A DNA stretch of 15,403 nucleotides from Longimicrobium sp. (GTDB taxonomy: Bacteria > Gemmatimonadota > Gemmatimonadetes > Longimicrobiales > Longimicrobiaceae), in the NCBI GenBank assembly GCA_030446945.1, contig JAUJMI010000029.1, positions 1 through 15,403 on the forward strand. Direction: 5' to 3'. Shown here piece by piece: positions 1,131 through 8,708 of this stretch. A model generated the notes under the pieces. It did no database searches, was not told the DNA's origin, and saw only the letters and a list, made by a program, of their open reading frames with translations. The translations under genes and the position numbers were made by a program. Numbering within the stretch: the stretch's first letter is position 1; the number at the start of each line of letters is the position of its first letter.

Positions 1131-2072
1131 ATGGCCCGATATACTGACGAAGAGCTAAAGGAAAAGGTCCACAACGGCTTCATCGTCGAGTATCCCGACG
1201 AGATGACGGAGGGGTACCGGAACGCGCTGATCGTGCAGCTGCTGGTGCAGGCGGACACGGAGCTGATCTCCGCGCCGGCGTACTTCGGGGCGGCCAAGGA
1301 TGCGCCGTCCACCAACACGATGGTGAGCGCCACGGCCATCATCCAGGACGAGCTGGCGCACGCCAACATCGCGTACCGCCTCCTCGAAGACCTGGGCATG
1401 GATAAGGAGCAGCTCGTGTACGGCCGCCAGGCGCACGAGTTCAAGCACCCGTACGGCTTCGACCACCCGCTGGAGAACTGGGCGGAGCTGGTGGTGGCCA
1501 ACGGCCTCTACGACCGCGCGGGGATCACGCTGCTGGGCGACGTCTTCAAGAACACGTCGTACGGCCCGCTCAAGCGCGCGCTGGTCAAGGTGGACCAGGA
1601 GGAGACCTTTCATCTGCGCCACGGCGAGATGTGGATGAAGCGCCTCTCGGCCGCCGGCGGCGAGGCGAAGGAGTCGATCCAGCGTGCCGTCGACTGGATG
1701 TTCCCGATGGCGGTGGAGTGGTTCGGGCTTCCGGACGACATGAAGCGCCATTCCGGACAGCTCGACTACAAGCTCAAGGGGATGACCAACGACGAGCTCC
1801 GGCAGACGTGGATGCAGTCCACCGTGCCGCTCTGCGAGTCGATCGGGATCGAGGTGCCGGCGCACTGGGACGAGGGTCGTGAGCGCTTCGTGCTGGACTA
1901 CGCCTTCCCCTGCGAGTACGACGAGGACGAGAAGCGCTGGCTCATGGACGAGGGCGAGATCTCGTGGAGCCAGGTGTTCGAGCGGTGGAAGGGGCGCGGG
2001 CCCGCGAACAAGCGCTTCGTGGAGTCGATCCAGGAGGGGCGGGCGTTCCGGGGCATGCTGGAGGCGGCATGA
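1131..2072 (+). CDS. paaA: 1,2-phenylacetyl-CoA epoxidase, catalytic subunit PaaA
   Basis: A 313-residue diiron subunit of the multicomponent monooxygenase that converts phenylacetyl-CoA plus O2 to the ring 1,2-epoxide, the committing step of aerobic phenylacetate breakdown in the cytoplasm. It has the expected carboxylate-bridged diiron ligands: E44 in the first helix, E74-x2-H77 ('DELAH'), E119 ('WAE') and E158-x2-H161 ('EETFH'). Length matches the family. ATG 1131 is chosen because a strong GAGGGAGAGGA lies at 1116-1126 and homology begins at 'MARYTDEEL'; the frame extends 59 codons further upstream but those read through the leader. It is first in the operon and overlaps paaD by 4 nt (ATGA). 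Regulation is probably by the palindrome at 992-1005. Confidence 0.97.
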   Translation: MARYTDEELKEKVHNGFIVEYPDEMTEGYRNALIVQLLVQADTELISAPAYFGAAKDAPSTNTMVSATAIIQDELAHANIAYRLLEDLGMDKEQLVYGRQAHEFKHPYGFDHPLENWAELVVANGLYDRAGITLLGDVFKNTSYGPLKRALVKVDQEETFHLRHGEMWMKRLSAAGGEAKESIQRAVDWMFPMAVEWFGLPDDMKRHSGQLDYKLKGMTNDELRQTWMQSTVPLCESIGIEVPAHWDEGRERFVLDYAFPCEYDEDEKRWLMDEGEISWSQVFERWKGRGPANKRFVESIQEGRAFRGMLEAA

Positions 2073-2497
2073 CGGGAACCGCGGTGCGTGAGTGCGGGAG
2101 TGCGTCAGTGCGTTTGTACGGCGACGAGCTCAGCGCACTCACGCAGTCACGCGCTGACGCACTTCCGTCCTACCCGGTGCCGGCGGAGGAGCGCACGGGG
2201 CCGCTGTGGGATGCGCTGCGCGAGGTGATGGACCCCGAGATCCCCATCTCGCTCGTGGACCTGGGGCTGATCTATGGCGTGCGGCAGGAGGGGACGACGG
2301 TGGAGGTGGACCTAACCTTCACGGCGACCGCCTGCCCGTGCATGGCCTTCATCCACTTCGACATCCAGGACCGCCTGCGGCGCGAGTGCGGCGTGGCCGA
2401 GGTCAAGGTCAACGAGGTGTGGACCCCCGCGTGGACCAAGGCCCGCATCTCGCACGAGGGCCGGGAGATGCTGAAGACGATGGGTGTCTCGATGTAA
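2069..2497 (+). CDS. paaD: PaaD-type epoxidase maturation factor, DUF59 (MIP18) part only
   Basis: 142 residues from ATG 2069, which overlaps the paaA stop and has GGAGG at 2060-2064. Residues ~43-142 form the DUF59/MIP18 domain: 'DPEIP' (55-59), 'DLGLIYGV' (64-71), 'CPCM' (89-92) and the PaaD-like 'WTPAWTKARIS'. PaaD is needed for function of the epoxidase and is thought to act in Fe-S or metal-centre assembly. The family's usual C-terminal CxxC zinc ribbon is absent; a separate gene at 3744-3935 carries it. Residues 6-32 are read from an inverted 8-nt word array (2084-2165) and look like low-complexity filler. A later start at GTG 2177 would remove them but has no ribosome site. Confidence 0.9.
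   Translation: MTGTAVRECGSASVRLYGDELSALTQSRADALPSYPVPAEERTGPLWDALREVMDPEIPISLVDLGLIYGVRQEGTTVEVDLTFTATACPCMAFIHFDIQDRLRRECGVAEVKVNEVWTPAWTKARISHEGREMLKTMGVSM
2084..2165. repeat. Inverted 8-nt word array (hairpin) inside the 5' part of paaD
   Basis: Left arm 2084-2115 is four 8-nt units of consensus GTGCGNNA. Right arm 2134-2165 is four 8-nt units of consensus CGCANTNA. The arms are imperfect reverse complements around an 18-nt loop, sharing the core AGTGCG followed by two variable bases. The array begins 11 nt after the paaA stop and is read in frame as PaaD residues 6-32. Same architecture as 2503-2568, 6747-6848 and 8632-8708. Confidence 0.85.
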
Positions 2498-2502
2498 CAG
2501 CG

Positions 2503-2568
2503 AGTGCTAAGTGCTTAGTGCCAAGTGAACTCCACCCAGGACTTAGCACTTAGGACTCAGCACTTTTG
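2503..2568. repeat. Inverted 7-nt word array between paaD and paaB
   Basis: Left arm 2503-2530 has three 7-nt units of consensus AGTGCNN plus a degenerate fourth. Right arm 2541-2568 has units of consensus ACTNAGN. Arms fold into an imperfect ~25-bp stem with a ~13-nt loop. It starts 5 nt after the paaD stop and ends 26 nt before paaB. The stem ends in TTTT (2564-2567), so partial transcription termination or mRNA end protection is conceivable, but paaB and paaC follow in the same operon. Confidence 0.85.
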
Positions 2569-2594
2569 CCCCCATCCTTCCTTACCGACGGCCC

Positions 2595-2891
2595 ATGAAA
2601 GAACCCGTATACGAAGTCTTCGCGCGCAAGGCGCGGGAGGAGCCGCTGCGGCACATCGGCTTCATCAACGCGACGGACGACGACCTGGCGCGCGTGTACG
2701 CCTGGAAGACGTACGACGAGCAGAACTGGGCGGAGATGTGCGTCATCCCGCGCAGCGCCATCATTCCGGTGGATCCGGGGGAGAGCCAGTTCGTGACGGC
2801 CAACGCCCCCGCCACCGAGGACTCGATCGTCCACGCGCGCGCCACGGGGGCGTACGGCGGGAGCGACGTGGCCATCAAGGGGGACGCATGA
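2595..2891 (+). CDS. paaB: 1,2-phenylacetyl-CoA epoxidase subunit PaaB
   Basis: A 98-residue protein of typical PaaB length. It starts 'MKEPVYEVFARKAREEPLRH' and has the central 'ATDDDLARVYAWKTYDEQNW' type region, recognisable as PaaB. In the E. coli complex PaaB bridges the PaaA/PaaC heterodimers and is thought to help couple electron delivery from PaaE. No metal site is expected. ATG 2595 has no visible Shine-Dalgarno; the preceding 26 nt are C-rich and follow the word array at 2503-2568. This is odd for a middle gene of an operon. The stop overlaps the paaC start by 4 nt (ATGA). Confidence 0.93.
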   Translation: MKEPVYEVFARKAREEPLRHIGFINATDDDLARVYAWKTYDEQNWAEMCVIPRSAIIPVDPGESQFVTANAPATEDSIVHARATGAYGGSDVAIKGDA

Positions 2892-3742
2892 GCATCGCCG
2901 AGGGCGCCGCGCGGGTGGAGAAGGCGGAGGAGCTGGGCGAGGGCGTCCGGGCCGCTCTCCGCGACCTGATCCTGACGCTGGCCGACTGCAAGCGGGTGCT
3001 GGGCCTCCGCTATTCGGACAAGATGCTGGGCGCGCCCACGCTGGAGGCGGGGATCGCCGCGTCGTCGATGGCGCAGGACGAGTGGGGGCACGGCCGCCTG
3101 ACCTATGCCCTCCTCTCCGAGTTCGGCGACGACCCCAAGGGCGAGCTGGAGCACGGCCGCCCCGCCACCGAGTACCGCAGCATGGGGCCGCTCGACCGCG
3201 GCTTCCGCTCGTGGAGCGAGACGGTGGCCGCCGGGCTCCTGCTGGACACCGCGCTCACGGTGCAGTACGGCGCGCTGCTGGACAGCCGCTACGTCCCCGT
3301 GCACAACCGCGTGCAGAAGCTGCTGGACGAGGAGCGCTTCCACTTCCAGTACGCCGCCGGGTGGGCGCGCCGCATCGCCGGGGTGTCGGTGGTGCGCGGG
3401 GAGTTCGCGGCGGCGCTGGCCGGCTACCTTCCCGAAGCTCTCCGCTGGCTCGGGCGCGACGATGCGGAGTCCACCCAGCTCCTCCTCTCCGAGGGAATCG
3501 TGACGCAGGGGCCGTCCGCGCTGCGCGCCCGCTTCCTGCGCCGCGTGGGTCCGGTGCTCGCCGAGACGGACCTGGCCGAGTCGCTGGGAGTCACCCAGGT
3601 CGATGGCGGTGAGTGGCGCTGCGACGCCACGCTGCGCTGGGAAGGCTGGAACGACGCCACCCGCCGCGCCAGCGGTGTGCTGGACGAGGAGACGGCCGCC
3701 CGCGCCCGCGGCGACAAGAACCGCGCGATGCTCCTGGACTGA
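2888..3742 (+). CDS. paaC: 1,2-phenylacetyl-CoA epoxidase structural subunit PaaC
   Basis: 284 residues, a ferritin-like helical paralogue of PaaA that supports the catalytic subunit. It keeps two ExxH motifs, E65-W-G-H68 ('DEWGH') and E-R-F-H in 'DEERFHF' near residue 156. By eye, the first-helix glutamate of PaaA (E44) aligns with K35 here ('ADCKRV' against 'ADTELI'), consistent with a non-catalytic site. It is somewhat longer than the ~250 residues I recall for E. coli PaaC; the extra part is at the C-terminus (after residue ~225). ATG 2888 overlaps the paaB stop and follows a GGGGGA ribosome site. The zinc-ribbon gene begins 1 nt after its stop. Confidence 0.95.
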   Translation: MSIAEGAARVEKAEELGEGVRAALRDLILTLADCKRVLGLRYSDKMLGAPTLEAGIAASSMAQDEWGHGRLTYALLSEFGDDPKGELEHGRPATEYRSMGPLDRGFRSWSETVAAGLLLDTALTVQYGALLDSRYVPVHNRVQKLLDEERFHFQYAAGWARRIAGVSVVRGEFAAALAGYLPEALRWLGRDDAESTQLLLSEGIVTQGPSALRARFLRRVGPVLAETDLAESLGVTQVDGGEWRCDATLRWEGWNDATRRASGVLDEETAARARGDKNRAMLLD

Positions 3743-3743
3743 C

Positions 3744-3935
3744 GTGGCCGAGCCGCACGCCGAGCGCCGCCCGGACGAGGTGGAGGAGAGCACCCTCCCC
3801 GACGCCGCGCCCTGCCCCTTCTGCGACGGGCGCGACACCCGGCTGATCAACCCGTTCGGCGGACAGCTATCGGTGGCGCAGTACTGGTGCAACCGCTGCC
3901 GCACGGGCTTCGAGTACATCAAGTGGGAAGACTGA
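3744..3935 (+). CDS. Stand-alone zinc-ribbon protein matching the C-terminal domain of PaaD
   Basis: 63 residues from GTG 3744, one base after the paaC stop. Two Cys pairs, C24-P-F-C27 and C49-N-R-C52, with 'FGGQLSVAQYWC' between them and 'FEYIKW' at the end. This closely parallels the last ~45 residues of E. coli PaaD as I remember it (CPxC ... FGSTACKALYRCDSCREPFDYFK). I therefore read it as the missing half of PaaD encoded as a separate gene. It probably binds Zn or Fe-S and works with the DUF59 protein on epoxidase maturation. No good ribosome site is seen, so translation may rely on coupling to paaC. GTG 3780 is an alternative start. Confidence 0.8.
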   Translation: MAEPHAERRPDEVEESTLPDAAPCPFCDGRDTRLINPFGGQLSVAQYWCNRCRTGFEYIKWED

Positions 3936-3997
3936 GCCCGGGTACATCGGGTGATGGTCGGCCCTGAACGAGGGGGGGGCCGAGGCGGGGAGAGGGC

Positions 3998-4092
3998 GGG
4001 CAGACACGTGGGTTCGCCCTTGCGATGCATCGGTGTGCGCGATGGGCGTCGACGCGGCGGCGGGCACGGGCGTGATGAATCACGCCCCTACG
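3998..4092. repeat. Copy 1 of a ~95-bp two-hairpin dispersed element
   Basis: Begins GGGCAG and ends CCCTACG, with the perfect hairpin GGGCGTGATGAATCACGCCC at 4068-4087 (8-bp stem, TGAA loop). A second copy with the same spacing lies at 11814-11910. The first hairpin is less conserved (GGGCG ... CGCCC here). It lies between the convergent 3' ends of the zinc-ribbon gene and the FAD-subunit gene, whose stop codon (4080-4082) falls in the distal arm right beside the loop. A bidirectional terminator role is plausible, although no T-run follows. Confidence 0.75.
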
Positions 4093-5099
4093 GCCATCTC
4101 CTCCAGGGCGCGGCGCACGTAGACGGGGACCATGGCGTGGCGCCAGTCGGGGTCCACGATCAGGTTCTCGAGGGGGTGGCACTGTTTGAAGGCAAGTGCG
4201 GCGGCGGCGTCCACCACCTCGTGCAAGGGCGCGCCCGCGAGCTTGTCCAGGCCCGAGACCATGCGCGGCTTCGCTCCCAGCGCGGACACGACCAGCGACA
4301 GCGACTCGACCCCGCTGCCGGGCGTGAGGCGCGCGGCGGCGGCGATGGAGAGGAGCGGGTAGTCGACCGAGTTGCGCTGCCTCACCTTGCGGTACGCGGT
4401 GCGCAGGCCCGGAGCAGGCAGCGGGATGCGGATGCGGTGGACGAGCTCGTCGCGGCGGCGCACGGTGTTCGCTTTGCCATCGGCGATGAAGAAGTCGGCG
4501 ACCGGCAGCGTGCGCGTGCCGTTGGCGGAGGCGAGGTCAATCGAGGCGCCCAGCGTCATCAGGACGGGGGGCGTGTCGGCGGAGTGGGCGGCGACGCACT
4601 TCCTGCCGACCTTGGTGACGTGGCAGACCTCGCCATCCTTTTTGAGGCAGAAGCCCAGCGCCTCGCGCCAGAAGTAGGACTGGTTGTAGTAGGTGCAGCG
4701 CGTATCCAGGCAGAGGTTGCCGCCCATCGTGCCCGAGTTGCGGATCTGCGGGGCGGCCACCTTGCCCGCGGCTGCGGCGAGGGAGGGGAAGACTCGGCGC
4801 ACCAGCGGGTTGCGCGAGACCTCGGTGAGCGTGGCCCCGGCGCCGATCACCAGCTCCCGTGCGTGGGGTGAATCGTCCGCCACCGGGTTCCCCGCGCCGT
4901 CCGCCAGGCCGATGCCGCGCAGCTCCGCGATCCCCTTGAGCGCCACCAGGTGGCGCGGGGTGAAGAGGCGGTGCTTCATGTTCGGCATCAGGTCCGTGCC
5001 GCCGGCGATCGCGAGCGCGTCCTCGTGCTCGCGCAGCAGCGCGAGGGCGTCGGCCAGGCGCGCGGGGCGGTGGTAGCGGTACTCGTGAAGACGCAGCAT
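4080..5099 (-). CDS. FAD-binding subunit of a xanthine dehydrogenase-family enzyme, 4-hydroxybenzoyl-CoA reductase beta (HcrB) type
   Basis: 339 residues. Shows the CO dehydrogenase/xanthine oxidase medium-subunit flavin motifs 'AGGTDLMP' (32-39) and 'TMGGN' (124-128). A cysteine-rich insert carries C135, C151, C159 and C168. The spacing 16/8/9 equals that which I recall for the extra [4Fe-4S] ligands of Thauera HcrB, a feature setting HcrB apart from ordinary medium subunits. The enzyme removes the phenolic hydroxyl of 4-hydroxybenzoyl-CoA; substrate here is inferred. The Mo-binding alpha and [2Fe-2S] gamma genes are not adjacent, so partners must be elsewhere. No clear ribosome site precedes ATG 5099. 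The last residues and stop are read from the dispersed repeat. It lies downstream of the histidine kinase on the same strand. Confidence 0.85.
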   Translation of the reverse strand: MLRLHEYRYHRPARLADALALLREHEDALAIAGGTDLMPNMKHRLFTPRHLVALKGIAELRGIGLADGAGNPVADDSPHARELVIGAGATLTEVSRNPLVRRVFPSLAAAAGKVAAPQIRNSGTMGGNLCLDTRCTYYNQSYFWREALGFCLKKDGEVCHVTKVGRKCVAAHSADTPPVLMTLGASIDLASANGTRTLPVADFFIADGKANTVRRRDELVHRIRIPLPAPGLRTAYRKVRQRNSVDYPLLSIAAAARLTPGSGVESLSLVVSALGAKPRMVSGLDKLAGAPLHEVVDAAAALAFKQCHPLENLIVDPDWRHAMVPVYVRRALEEMAVGA

Positions 5100-5198
5100 G
5101 GGGCGGATCGTGAGATGCGGAACGCGTGCAAGTGCTGGCGCAACATAGCGAGACCGCCCGCGTCCCGGAAAGGGCGCGGGCCGCCGTACATCGCGGGG

Positions 5199-6647
5199 TC
5201 AGCCCTGCGACGGGAAGTCTACCGGGACCCGCAGGCGGAAGACGGCGCCCGCGGCCGCTTCGCCGTCCTCAACGTCGAGCGTGCCGTGGAGGCGGCGGGC
5301 GAGCTGCCGAGCGACCGTGAGTCCCAGACCTGTCCCGCGGGTGGCGGAATCGGTGCGGGATGGATCGCACAGCTGCTCGAACGGCTGGAAGATCCGCTCG
5401 CGGTCGTCGGCGGGGATGCCGGGGCCGGTGTCGGCGATGCGGAACTCCATGGTGCCGGGGTCGGCCGCGGTGCGCGCCTCCACGCGGACGCCGCCGCGCG
5501 GCGTGAACTTGAGGGCGTTCCCCACCACCGCCTGTAGGACCTGGCGGAGCCGATCCGGGTCGCTCTCCACCGGGGGGAGGGACTCGGGAGCGGCGATGGT
5601 GAACGAGAGGCCCTTCGCTTCGGCCTGCACGCGGAGCGGCTCCATGGCGGCTTGCAGGAACTCCGCCGGGGCGAGCCTCACCGGCACCACGCGCAGGCGG
5701 TCGATCTCGGTGGTGGAGAGTAGGAGGACGTCGTCCACCAGCCGCGACAGGTGCTCGGCGCACATGCTGGAGCGCTCGGCGGCGCGCTGAGCCTCGCGCG
5801 GCAACGGGCCAAAGGTGGCGGTGGCCAGGAGGTGCGAGTAGCCGACGATGGCGTGCAGCGGCGTGCGCAGCTCGTGGCTCGCGGCGGCGAAGAAGCGGGC
5901 GCGGGCGCGGCTCGCCTCCTCGGCCTCGGCGGCGTAGCGGGCCAGGTCCTTGTCGCGCTCGATGCGGGCGGTCACGTCCTCGAACAGGATCGACGCGCCG
6001 CCGTCCGCCAGCGGCCTCGTCCACACGTCAAAGAAGCGGCCGCGGAAGGGCTCCGCCTCGACCTCGATCGAGTGGAGCCGGTGCGGCTTCCCATCGGCCA
6101 GCGCGGCGCGAAGGGTGTCGCGGAGGACCGCCGGCACCTCGGGGAGGAGCGACCAGATCTCGGCGCCCGGAACGGCATGGCGCCAGGCGCCGAGGACGCC
6201 GAGGACGCCGCGGGCGGCGCGGTTGGCGTACGTGATCCGCCCCGCCGCGTCCACCGCCACGCACCCGTGCCGGAGCGACTCCAAAAGGCCGCGCGAGCGC
6301 CCCGCACCTGGCTCCACGGCGCGCAGCTGGAGCGCCACGCCGTCCTCGGCGGGTGTGGCGATCACGCAGAAGGGGTGCGGCGCGTCGGGGAAGATCTCCT
6401 CGCCCGGCATTCGCACCGGCGCGTCCGCGTCGCGCGCCCGCGACAGACGCTCGCGCACGGAAGCCTCGTCCGCCCTCGGGAACGCAGCGGACACGGTGAG
6501 GCCGAGTACCTCCGCGCGGGGGGCGCCCAGCATGCGCTCGGCGGCGGCGTTGCAGTAGGTGAGGCGCCACTCCGGGCCCACCATGCAGAAGCCGTCCGAA
6601 AGGGCTTCGAGGGCCGGAATGCGCTCGGGTACGACGGACACGGTCAC
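5199..6647 (-). CDS. Soluble PAS-PAS sensor histidine kinase
   Basis: 482 residues from GTG 6647, preceded by GGAG at 6654-6657 (6-nt spacing). Order: PAS 1 (~15-112), PAS 2 (~122-229), HisKA with the phospho-acceptor H258 in 'SHELRTPLHAIVGYSHLL', and HATPase_c with N box around N377 ('GNALKFTP'), G1 'DTGPGIP' (406-412) and G2 'GTGLGL' (438-443). It ends soon after the ATPase domain, with no receiver or HPt. No transmembrane segment or signal peptide, so it is cytoplasmic and senses an internal ligand, redox state or partner. No response regulator gene is in the window. The frame is open to ATG 6806, but those 53 residues would be read through the word array at 6747-6848 and lack domain content. 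Confidence 0.9.
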   Translation of the reverse strand: MTVSVVPERIPALEALSDGFCMVGPEWRLTYCNAAAERMLGAPRAEVLGLTVSAAFPRADEASVRERLSRARDADAPVRMPGEEIFPDAPHPFCVIATPAEDGVALQLRAVEPGAGRSRGLLESLRHGCVAVDAAGRITYANRAARGVLGVLGAWRHAVPGAEIWSLLPEVPAVLRDTLRAALADGKPHRLHSIEVEAEPFRGRFFDVWTRPLADGGASILFEDVTARIERDKDLARYAAEAEEASRARARFFAAASHELRTPLHAIVGYSHLLATATFGPLPREAQRAAERSSMCAEHLSRLVDDVLLLSTTEIDRLRVVPVRLAPAEFLQAAMEPLRVQAEAKGLSFTIAAPESLPPVESDPDRLRQVLQAVVGNALKFTPRGGVRVEARTAADPGTMEFRIADTGPGIPADDRERIFQPFEQLCDPSRTDSATRGTGLGLTVARQLARRLHGTLDVEDGEAAAGAVFRLRVPVDFPSQG

Positions 6648-6746
6648 ACGAGACTCCGGGGTGCTGCTCCTGCGCGGGCCAGGACGCCCGCCGCGGCCTA
6701 CTGGATGGTTGGACCCCCGGGTGGCGTCATCTGTTCCCGGTGAACA

Positions 6747-6848
6747 GGGATGCGGGATGGGGGATGAGGAAGAAGCTGTCCCCGTGAGTTGTTCCTCATC
6801 CCTCATCCCTTCATCCCCAATCCCTATCCCCTATTCCCTATTCCCTCA
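6747..6848. repeat. Inverted 7-nt word array between the binding-lipoprotein and kinase genes
   Basis: Left arm 6747-6774 holds 7-nt units of consensus GGGATGN, the last one degenerate. Right arm 6792-6848 holds eight units of consensus TCCCTNN, one of them 8 nt long. The arms can pair imperfectly (e.g. GGGATGAGGAA with TTCCTCATCCC) around a ~17-nt loop. The last unit, TCCCTCA, contains the stop codon of the binding-protein gene on the minus strand (6846-6848). The right arm carries twice as many units as the left, as expected if copy number drifts by slippage. Confidence 0.85.
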
Positions 6849-8549
6849 TTTCGCCTGCGCCCCCATCCGGTCCCGCCCCGTGCGCTTGTTGGGCGGCACG
6901 CTCCAGTAGATCACGTCCTCCCACCACTCCGGGCCGCGGAACTTCACGTTGGAAAAGCGCGCGCTGACGCCGTAGAACTCCGGGTCCAGGAAGATGGGCG
7001 CGTACACGGCGTCGTCGATCGCCGTCTGCTCCAGGGTGCGCCACATCGCGCGGGCTCGCGCCGTGTCCGCCTCCACGAGGAGGGAGTCGATCAGGGCGTC
7101 GACCTTTGGGTTCTTGTAGCCGGCGAAGTTGGCGCCGCCCGGCGGAATGGAGCGCGAGTGCCAGATGGCTTCCGCGTTGGGCGCCATCACCCCCGGGCCC
7201 CATCCCCACCCCCAGAACGAGCCGGTGAACTGGCGCGCGCGTAGACGCGACACCCAGGTGGTGCTCTCCATCGGCTTGAGGACCAGGTTGATGCCGGCCC
7301 GCTTGGCCTGGCTCTGCATCCCCACCAGCATGTCGGGGCGAATGGGGTCGCTGGAGCTGAACTCGATCTCCAGGTTCAGCGGCCGGCCGCCCTTGTCGCG
7401 GATCCCGTCGCCGTTGGTGTCGCGCCAGCCGGCGGCGTCCAGCAGCCGCCCCGCGCCCGCCACGTCGTGCGGGATCGGACGCACCTCGCGCGAGTGCTCG
7501 CGGAGCGCGGGAGGGATCGGCGAGAGCGCCGGCTCGCCCGCCTCGCCCAGGAGGCCCCGCACGAGCGCGGGACGGTCGATGGACATCAGGAACGCCTGCC
7601 GGACGCGGATGTCGTTGACCGGCTCCTTGTCCACGTTCCACGCGATCCATCCGGGCCGCACGCGCGGGGTGTGGTGCAGCTCCACCGCCTGCGCGCTCTC
7701 CACGCGCCCCTTCTGGTCCGCCGAGACCTTGGTGAGGTCGCCCTCGCCGTTGAGGAGCGAGGTGAGGCGGGCGCTCGGCTCGGGGACGTTGCGCACGACG
7801 ATGCGGTCGAGCGAAGGACGCCCGCCCAGCGCCTCGGTGTTGGCGTTGACCGTCACCTGCCGCCCCTGCTCCCAGCTCCCGAACCGGTACAGCCCGTTCC
7901 CCACCGGCGCGCGGCCAAAGGAGTGGAAGCGCATCTGCGCCGGGGCCACGTCTTTGAGGATGTGCTTGGGGACGGGGATCACCTCCAGGAGCGCGTTGAC
8001 CGCCGCGGGGCTCATCCGCGAAAGCTTCGCCTCCACCGTCATCGAGTCCACCATGCGGACCGACTCGACGCCCTCCACGTCCGGCTTTCGGGGGGAGCCG
8101 ACGTTCTCATCCTTTTGGCGCTCGATGGTGAACACCACGTCCTCGGCGGTCACCGGCTTGCCGTCGTGCCACTTGAGGCCGGGGCGCACCTTCATCATCA
8201 CCGTGTTCCCGTTGACCTGCCACGACTCCAGGAGGTCGGGAACGTAGTTGCTCAGCGTGCTGTCGCGCCGCGCCAGCGCCCTGAACATCAGGTGGACGAG
8301 GTTGTATGACGGCGACGCGTCGAAGGTGAGCGGATTGAGGTTGTCCGGCTCGCGGTCCCAGAGGACGATCAGCGTCCCCCCGGGAGGTCCGCCGCCAAAG
8401 GTCTTGTAGCCGCCCGGAGGCGTCTTCTCCGCCGCCCCGCCGCCGCCGCCGGCATCATCGCCGCCGCCCCCGCACGCCGCGGCACCCAGCGCCGCGCAGA
8501 CCGCCAGCGCGCCGGCTCCGCGCGCCGCCCACCGATGCAGAAGCCTCAT
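6846..8549 (-). CDS. ABC transporter substrate-binding lipoprotein, family 5 (peptide/nickel type)
   Basis: 567 residues. An N-terminal signal 'MRLLHRWAARGAGALAVCAA' leads to a lipobox 'GAAAC' with C26 as lipidation site, followed by a Gly-rich linker (27-48). The body has the family-5 pattern, e.g. 'LKWHDGKPVTAEDVVFTIER' (125-144) and 'AFLMSIDRPALVRGLLGE'. Such proteins capture oligopeptides or other ligands at the outer face of the inner membrane for an ABC importer. No permease or ATPase gene is next to it, so it is either an orphan or serves a transporter elsewhere. ATG 8549 has a GGAAAGG site and is the start of the signal; the open frame extends to 8822 but that part overlaps the word array at 8632-8708 and the acetyltransferase gene. 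The ligand cannot be named. Confidence 0.92.
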   Translation of the reverse strand: MRLLHRWAARGAGALAVCAALGAAACGGGGDDAGGGGGAAEKTPPGGYKTFGGGPPGGTLIVLWDREPDNLNPLTFDASPSYNLVHLMFRALARRDSTLSNYVPDLLESWQVNGNTVMMKVRPGLKWHDGKPVTAEDVVFTIERQKDENVGSPRKPDVEGVESVRMVDSMTVEAKLSRMSPAAVNALLEVIPVPKHILKDVAPAQMRFHSFGRAPVGNGLYRFGSWEQGRQVTVNANTEALGGRPSLDRIVVRNVPEPSARLTSLLNGEGDLTKVSADQKGRVESAQAVELHHTPRVRPGWIAWNVDKEPVNDIRVRQAFLMSIDRPALVRGLLGEAGEPALSPIPPALREHSREVRPIPHDVAGAGRLLDAAGWRDTNGDGIRDKGGRPLNLEIEFSSSDPIRPDMLVGMQSQAKRAGINLVLKPMESTTWVSRLRARQFTGSFWGWGWGPGVMAPNAEAIWHSRSIPPGGANFAGYKNPKVDALIDSLLVEADTARARAMWRTLEQTAIDDAVYAPIFLDPEFYGVSARFSNVKFRGPEWWEDVIYWSVPPNKRTGRDRMGAQAK

Positions 8550-8631
8550 CTGCCCGCCTTTCCGAAGGGGTTGTTCGTCGCACGCCCGGATGGGTGCGGC
8601 GCAGGAAGTTTGCCAGGACGGCAAGCGCGCC

Positions 8632-8708
8632 GTGCTCAGTGCCTGGTGACCAGGGGCTTCGGGTGCGACACTCCCGCTGGGCACCAGGCACTTGGCACTC
8701 GGCCACTG
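8632..8708. repeat. Inverted 7-nt word array between the acetyltransferase and binding-lipoprotein genes
   Basis: Left arm 8632-8652 has three 7-nt units of consensus GTGCNNN. Right arm 8681-8708 has units of consensus GCACNNG, the last degenerate. Arms pair well in the middle (AGTGCCTGGTG with CACCAGGCACT). Loop is ~28 nt. The array ends 5 nt from the acetyltransferase stop (8714-8716, minus strand). Words share the AGTGC core with the arrays at 2084 and 2503. Confidence 0.8.

Follow-up and report, generated by a model that had tools for sequence, protein, structure and literature searches.

The window analysed here, a stretch of 15,403 nucleotides from a Longimicrobium species, is an entire contig (JAUJMI010000029.1) of a draft assembly that comprises 526 contigs and 3.73 Mb. 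Gene calls and family matches, the latter all below curated cut-offs, place in it an operon resembling that for phenylacetyl-CoA epoxidase, with paaA, paaD, paaB, paaC and a small paaD/paaE-like gene, together with genes for a molybdenum-hydroxylase FAD subunit, a sensor kinase, an ABC substrate-binding protein and a GNAT/Eis-like protein. The calls are those of a second gene caller, which gives the expected window genes; a first caller was dropped because it chose antisense frames. Our subject is four loci among these genes, at each of which a tandem array of a 7- or 8-nt word is followed, across a loop, by an array of its reverse complement (Table 1). The original prediction had placed these pairs at 2084-2165, 2503-2568, 6747-6848 and 8632-8708. 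All four lie there and fold better than shuffled sequence, the case for locus 4 being weak.

Table 1 Arms of the four paired arrays of the window, with the paaD frame that contains the first of them.
Feature	Position	Strand	Description
Locus 1, left arm	2083..2112	+	About four 8-nt units (AGTGCGNN); Tandem Repeats Finder (TRF) 2084-2113, period 8; tolerant pair 2084-2163
Locus 1, right arm	2133..2164	-	Reverse-complement 8-nt units, two cores mutated
paaD frame	2069..2497	+	ATG overlaps the paaA stop; locus 1 within the first ~36 codons; open frame
Locus 2, left arm	2503..2527	+	AGTGCNN; begins 5 nt past the paaD stop (TAA 2495-2497)
Locus 2, right arm	2538..2565	-	AGTGC and AGTCC units mixed; orthologous spaces compared in nine relatives
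Locus 3, left arm	6747..6770	+	GGGATGN, about three units
Locus 3, right arm	6793..6845	-	About seven units, GGGATGA giving way by drift to GGGAATA; directly adjoins the stop (6848-6846) of the minus-strand ABC substrate-binding protein gene
Locus 4, left arm	8637..8654	+	Degenerate AGTGCCT/GGTGACC units
Locus 4, right arm	8679..8708	-	Begins about 5 nt past the stop (8716-8714) of the minus-strand GNAT-like gene

Computed RNA folding energies for loci 1 to 4 are -52.5, -29.9, -47.7 and -49.2 kcal/mol (z = -4.21, -4.33, -5.09 and -3.34), equalled or beaten by 0, 0, 0 and 1 of 200 shuffles, respectively. A tolerant detector, relied on within the window only and requiring at least 3+3 units with one mismatch per core and arms no more than 60 nt apart, returned loci 1-3 and no others at periods 7 and 8. 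At periods 5, 6 and 9-12 the window gave no pairs, and 60 dinucleotide shuffles of the window gave a mean of 0.1 and never more than one. Locus 4 fails this detector because its intact units are too few; the orthologous site carries clear arrays in two relatives, G005 and G006. Rfam 15 gave eight hits in the window with E up to 1, none near gathering scores, and seven of these were microRNA hairpin models lying on the arrays. An ungapped hairpin search (+1/-2, score at least 16) was discarded, having missed the window's own arrays.

Locus 1, which begins about 11 nt past the paaA stop, is an 8-mer array inside the paaD frame and not intergenic: the frame from the ATG at 2069 reads through it. 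PaaD-type NCBIfam matches, below curated cut-offs, cover 2177-2494, and the second gene caller puts the paaD start at 2177, past the array. Across ten genomes of the genus the aligned lengths at this site run from 218 to 269 and are all equal modulo 3, while those of the paaD-paaB space in the same genomes are not. An in-frame pair of 8-mer arrays at the 5′ end of paaD was seen in G000, G005 and G006, single 8-mer arrays in G001 and G007, and a decayed form in G004.

Paired arrays of periods 7 and 8 are abundant in the genus. A census made without regard to word, covering 1.06 Mb of nine genomes and requiring 3+2 exact copies, found 21 pairs at period 7 and 26 at period 8 (47 without overlap). 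Period 9 gave 7 pairs, the harmonic period 14 gave 11, and periods 4-6 and 10-13 gave 0-2. Shuffled DNA was used for the window only, as dinucleotide shuffles, and the census controls were complement and reversed words. The complement control gave 2, 5 and 3 pairs at periods 7, 8 and 9. The reversed (mirror) control gave 7, 11 and 4 and is a poor control, as TGAGT-like words are mirror-symmetric and TAGGG recurs in GGGATTA arrays. Irrespective of word, the arrays exceed the complement control, in line with the original prediction. The density is 44 per Mb, which extrapolates to about 290 per 6.5-Mb genome. Many of the sampled contigs came from hit lists, a mild bias towards arrays. Ten of the twenty G000 stretches had been picked for their hits and were excluded from the census; the G001 stretches, and all but two of those from G003, are contig starts taken in number order, the first G003 contig being known to hold hits.

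All genus counts rest on exact 3+2 and 3+3 copies only. Detectors using 2+2 copies or tolerating mismatches were discarded genus-wide as swamped by the GC-rich coding background, the tolerant counts against the complement control being 30 versus 14 at period 7 and 38 versus 36 at period 8. The genomes are drafts, and one G001 contig starts within an 11-unit array (L348:6-91), so short-read assembly may fail at arrays and their number be underestimated. Counted word by word, three-unit AGTGCNN arrays number 39 in the window genome versus 0 for the reversed control, reach 730 in one relative and are present in 12 of the 61 genomes searched, ten of which are the genus. The GGGAT pattern occurs 50 times in the window genome versus 39 for the (poor) reversed control. 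Among 298 genomes of the phylum, four-unit AGTGC arrays were found in 15 (10 of 119 genera) and three-unit CACAGAG arrays also in 15 (9 of 119 genera), in a patchy distribution with isolated rich genomes.

The pairs have a preferred polarity. When pairs with at least three copies per arm within 260 nt were sought both ways, 45 were convergent, with the word strand running inward, and none divergent; G outnumbers C in the left arm of 51 of 72 genus pairs and the opposite holds in 9. These counts, like the stop distances and the arm concordance below, include orthologous copies from syntenic blocks. The same bias holds in 22 of 29 pairs free of the bait word (2 opposite) among the listed loci of a scan of named-species genomes.

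Most of the arms lie between genes: this is so for 187 of the 199 analysed, which represent eight words, while 11 are at sequence edges and one is in a called gene. Stop codons are faced by 103 arms at a median of 6 nt: 66 begin 0-20 nt past the stop, 17 of the 103 at exactly 5 nt, and 14 overlap the called gene end by up to 25 nt. The 84 arms that face a start do so at a median of 73 nt, with 13 within 20 nt. The arrays are thus anchored just past stop codons, a relation to gene ends that the original prediction had raised.

The motif AACNG[AC] (AACTGC, AACGGC) borders arms of several words, on their outer and on their inner sides. Around 123 genus arms we counted it 28 times within the 20 nt preceding the arm, 4 times at 40-20 nt and never at 80-40 nt; 21 occurrences fall within the 10 nt that follow the arm. 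It was rejected as a general part of the design, as it is not enriched in the listed named-species AGTGC loci as a whole. Some left arms hold a series of 7-mer array, AACGGC and 8-mer array (L330:1768-1870, L257:7453-7552, L337), which may record nested or successive events.

Such a position raises the explanation that the arrays are selected as bidirectional terminators or mRNA 3′-end hairpins, for which any pairing word would suffice and slippage would supply the arms; the order of purine-rich arm first and pyrimidine-rich arm second could favour transcript release on both strands. Beyond the anchoring just past stops, the flanking genes are consistent with this: of 72 pairs, 58 lie between codirectional genes, 12 between convergent and 1 between divergent genes (1 at a contig edge), versus 550, 108 and 124 of the background intergenic spaces of at least 60 nt. 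In AGT-type arms, moreover, the frequency of A is 0.34 in the 6 nt before the arm versus 0.16 further out, so that T follows the opposite arm. However, two of the window copies are situated within a single apparent operon, between paaA, paaD and paaB, one of them inside the paaD frame, and at least 10 of 25 orthologous sites have no array in a relative. Of the features of an intrinsic terminator, the hairpin is strong but the T-rich tails are weak and partly a matter of word register, and a terminator scan placed none at arrays (6 sites versus 4.4 expected), a weak test as it covers loops of 3-8 nt only. Nor is the order of the variable bases kept complementary between arms, matches in the genus at the inner register being 10/39 versus 10.6 by chance at period 7 and 11/47 versus 11.6 at period 8. 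A role at mRNA ends would fit the position and polarity, and not the paa-operon copies, the weak T tails or the poor conservation; we regard selected terminators as an unlikely explanation of the class.

The words of the genus are AGTGCNN, AGTCCNN, AGTGCGNN, AGTACGNN, GGGATNN/GGGAANN, ACGCGGAG and ACACAGAG. Their proportions vary among the eight genomes whose samples held pairs, and each genome draws on a small lexicon that is also used across the genus. The claim that the loci share an architecture and not a word is accordingly supported only in part: other words do give the same design, which is shared beyond any single word, but the lexicon is small in each genome and in the genus, and AGTGC itself recurs in about 12 phyla.

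Within a locus the arms are mostly concordant. Arms were paired from a preset word list by position and polarity alone, and right arms were shuffled within genomes for comparison: 34 of 45 pairs carry the same word on both arms versus 17.6 +- 2.9 shuffled (maximum 29 in 2000), and 41 of 45 the same period versus 27.9 +- 2.7. The proposal that the two arms of a locus share their word thus holds for these 34 pairs and gives way at the other 11 and at the G005 copy of locus 3, to which we return below. Concordance extends to the free spacers at period 7, where 27 of 54 left spacers recur in their own right arm, versus a fraction of 0.25 in other loci of the same core. The order of the spacers, unmirrored in the genus at the inner register, is slightly above chance at the best register (7.6 versus 6.7 +- 0.6 and 9.3 versus 8.1 +- 1.0). 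Among the listed named-species AGTGC loci it is mirrored above chance, at 95/237 versus 73.3 +- 6.6 with arms counted from both sides. The unit numbers of the two arms show no clear correlation (rho 0.25, p 0.10). Given the unmirrored spacers in the genus and the uncorrelated unit numbers, simple fold-back copying of an entire arm is unsupported and was rejected. The usual arm has 3-4 exact units, and arms of 16 and 30 exact units are visible expansions.

Comparison of related species revealed rapid turnover. Eighty-two paired regions with their flanks were grouped by orthology, and for 25 sites both flanks allowed alignment across 2-10 genomes of the genus. By eye, at least 10 of these 25 have an orthologue in which no remnant of an array is visible; an automatic rule, under which decayed or other-word arrays count as absent, put the number of sites varying in presence at 21. 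In G008, for example, about 130 bp have been gained between a stop codon and the gene after it, at a place that is array-free in nine relatives. When 44 empty orthologous segments were searched for the word of the occupied site as a possible local seed, it occurred 18 times versus 7.6 expected, several of these occurrences being decayed arrays or coding sequence. At L107:15251 in G005, the orthologue of a composite element of G000 (L111:4537-4688), only the right outer edge GTGAGCCATGCAGTTAC is left, which looks like a deletion remnant.

Nine of the sites are paired in at least two genomes, and on inspection word or period differs on both arms at three of them. The automatic rule scored four, from which L330|1768 was removed because both species hold the same nested structure. 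In the paaD-paaB space, the site of locus 2, AGTGC occupies both arms in G000, G004, G005, G006 and G009, with some AGTCC units mixed in, AGTCC both arms in G003 and G008, and mainly 8-mer AGTGCGA both arms in G002; the array is decayed in G007 and has one arm in G001. At L335|1312 the flanks are kept while G005 has the 8-mer AGTGCGTT on both arms and G006 has 7-mers on both (AGTCC/AGTGC on the left, AGTGC on the right). At L257|7452, G005 has 8-mers and G006 7-mers on both arms, with an additional 8-mer stretch in G006. Joint change of the arms between species, the expectation of the original prediction, is thus seen at three of nine multi-species sites.

Another explanation is telomere-like break healing, in which DNA would break behind a gene, one templated activity would extend the two 3′ ends with 7-8-nt words, and the ends would be joined head to head. 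Such a process would give a word and period common to both arms, G-rich strands running to the junction, unmirrored spacer order, unit numbers without clear correlation and, between the same flanks, different words and periods; the unique junctions of AGT-type pairs and the existence of single-arm sites are also consistent with it. To our knowledge, however, no bacterial enzyme adds words in this way, G001, which is array-rich and 98% complete, has no match to the reverse-transcriptase family RVT_1, and the variation within words would require a sloppy template. We consider break healing improbable. The broader proposal, that bacteria of many phyla have an activity which, at breaks behind genes, writes arbitrary 7-/8-nt words onto the two 3′ ends and then joins these head to head, appears to us more doubtful again. 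If true, the hairpin class would be the scar of a bacterial counterpart of telomere addition and fusion, and a genome's word the trace of a template.

Part of the class does disperse as a unit. In composite elements (L051:10234-10387, L113:9538-9703, L251:11790-12022, L336:10226-10400), ACGCGGAG/CGCAGAG arrays enclose CACAGAG arrays; their interiors, or loops, are related, and the elements occur dispersed, G005 and G006 holding dozens of partial copies at 81-96% identity. Inverted pairs behind genes are known from repetitive extragenic palindromic (REP) sequences and their paired forms, REPINs, which go with REP-associated tyrosine transposases (RAYTs) and are extragenic, dispersed and different between species; they are not known to contain tandem words, and they form one sequence family per RAYT. 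The arrays could accordingly be the REP sequences of a RAYT (a Y1 transposase), moved in the manner of REPINs or of miniature inverted-repeat transposable elements (MITEs). Like REPINs, they are extragenic inverted pairs behind genes, and the shared interiors of the composite 8-mers, the edge motif AACNG[AC] and clean gains such as that in G008 would fit transposition. The family Y1_Tnp is present in 9 of 10 genus genomes with 2-6 matches each, but these include G002 and G009, both poor in AGTGC 7-mers, and it was not found in the drafts G000 and G018, both of which have arrays. Unlike in REPINs, no link to a cognate RAYT was apparent: among 30 Y1_Tnp loci (23 of the genus) a paired array occurs at 2 and an array of at least three copies at 3. 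The genus moreover has at least seven words of two periods, several of them in each genome, instead of one sequence family, and the AGT-type loops are unique. Transposition by a RAYT is, in our estimate, a poor prospect.

Taken together, we give about an even chance to the reading that the arrays form a dispersed, non-autonomous class of repeat set by its design: head-to-head tandem arrays of one 7- or 8-nt word, with the G-rich strand inward, forming a hairpin just past a stop codon. Arms would lengthen and shorten by slippage in steps of 7-8 nt. Both arms would be replaced together, by recombination with another copy through the shared edges or by rebuilding of the cassette, and such replacement would spread the words current in that genome. 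Copies would persist past stops, where a hairpin may be harmless or mildly useful at the mRNA 3′ end or in the control of read-through. Slippage within arms combined with joint replacement of both arms is the simplest account that the sequence comparisons suggest.

Several observations count against this design-based class and its proposed dynamics. Of the 45 pairs, 11 are discordant (AGTGC with AGTCC in 5, 7-mers with 8-mers of AGTGC in 4, GGGAT with GGGAA in 1 and GGGGA with AGTGC in 1). At locus 3 in G005 the left arm alone has changed and the arms are mismatched, and at L257|18794 both G005 and G006 have AGTCC on the left and AGTGC on the right. One pair with fewer copies has reversed polarity (L104:12680). 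The loops of AGT-type pairs are essentially unique in our samples, so that movement of a whole unit was not seen for them. Joint replacement of the arms is deduced from comparison between species, and neither of the enzyme families tested, Y1 transposase and reverse transcriptase, follows the number of arrays.

The heptanucleotide arrays in intergenic DNA known as short tandemly repeated repetitive (STRR) sequences of cyanobacteria had been put forward as the nearest parallel. They share the heptamer arrays and intergenic position seen here, but paired repeats are described as few among the heptamers of Nostoc (Rehm et al. 2015, PMC4692102). The nearest published case is instead in that same account, the one-word GGGAATC inverted pairs of Xanthomonas. 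These GGGAATC/GGGANTN heptamers are described there as forming 70 and 75 convergent inverted pairs, to which no function is assigned, mostly of four units, at an average of 28 nt from the 5′ open reading frame (ORF) and mostly near the end of the preceding gene. Divergent spaces are under-represented among them, and 83% of the repeats recur at the same place in a second species (PMC4692102). The Longimicrobium arrays resemble them in period 7, in convergence (45 pairs versus none divergent), in lying close behind an ORF and in the scarcity of divergent spaces. Unlike the single word described for Xanthomonas, however, several words of two periods occur here in one genome, most of the words lacking a run of three G, and in place of 83% conservation we find frequent gain and loss, change of word on both arms and at least 10 of 25 sites with an array-free orthologue. 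The word itself differs: GGGAT, GGGAA or GGGGA occurs in 39 of 249 arms of at least three copies, the remainder being AGTGC, AGTCC, AGTAC, CAGAG, GCGGA or GCAGA.

That the G-rich arm acts as a G-quadruplex, a proposal made for the GGGAATC heptamers, would be consistent with the same position and polarity and with the usual arm of 3-4 exact units. The commonest words (AGTGC, AGTCC, AGTAC and CACAGAG) nevertheless lack any run of three G, so that the four G runs of a quadruplex are possible for GGGAT-type arms and not for these, and as an explanation of the class it is scarcely credible. The TAACTGA heptamers of Beggiatoaceae are, like the present arrays, intergenic tandem heptamers found in distant phyla; unlike them, they are direct repeats mostly facing start codons, with one inverted set in a table of 170 (MacGregor 2015, PMC4679880). 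No general, multi-word account of paired arrays was found in the open-access literature searched.

Beyond the genus, the scan of named-species genomes for AGTGC pairs with loops of 8-38 nt returned at least 118 stretches, of which 80 were listed. Read from the record titles of the matches listed, many of them metagenome bins and some perhaps misbinned, the pairs occur in about 12 phyla, the taxa including Gemmatimonadetes, Planctomycetes, Alphaproteobacteria, Thiohalocapsa, Chloroflexi, Cyanobacteria, Acidobacteria, Verrucomicrobia, Nitrospirae, Bacteroidetes, Abditibacteriaceae, NPL-UPA2 and Oscillospiraceae. The listed loci hold 114 pairs at period 7 versus 41 in the complement control, a figure that is bait-selected and was not counted as support.

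A collection of 2.9 million viral contigs, with many duplicates and several identical AGTGC stretches among them, yielded stretches of the same design for AGTGC (12), GGGAT (25), CGTGA (13), AGTTA (12) and GAAAC (3), and three GGGAT stretches at period 9. The polarity again holds, at 12 versus 0 for AGTGC and 25 versus 1 for GGGAT. Of these words AGTTA had already been seen in cyanobacterial loci, GAAAC was arbitrary and CGTGA, which is AGTGC backwards, was intended as a negative control, in which role it failed with 13 stretches versus 12. It was taken instead as a further word because one genome of the phylum, G272, holds 80 four-unit matches of CGTGANN and no AGTGC arrays; G272 apparently uses another dialect. 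Since other words give the same design, AGTGC is not special; the design is.

Heptamer arrays have so far been described word by word, and the rule found here stands above the word: a period of 7 or 8, one word on two arms, the G-rich strand inward and a start just past a stop. It holds for several words at once in one genus, and the paired period-7 design and its polarity recur with other words in unrelated sequences. Heptamers are the commonest class of long repeat in most genomes according to Mrazek 2007, as cited in MacGregor 2015 (PMC4679880). With arrays gained, lost and re-worded among related species, the question of why heptamers are favoured as long bacterial repeats becomes directly testable. 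For annotators and population geneticists the arrays also call for caution, as a fast-changing class of hairpin behind genes that is able to enter reading frames, as in paaD.

The sampled stretches also contain other dispersed repeats. In G001, L104:12680-12909 and L349:1543-1741 are both flanked by arrays, of reversed polarity in one of the two, and share a 143-nt body at 91% identity. A separate dispersed repeat of about 240 bp, self-matching on both strands, lies at L032:13800-14090 and has copies in G003. At L039:1-184 there is a repeat of 140-230 bp with many G003 copies at 85-100% identity, several of them at contig ends, which is perhaps the end of an insertion sequence.

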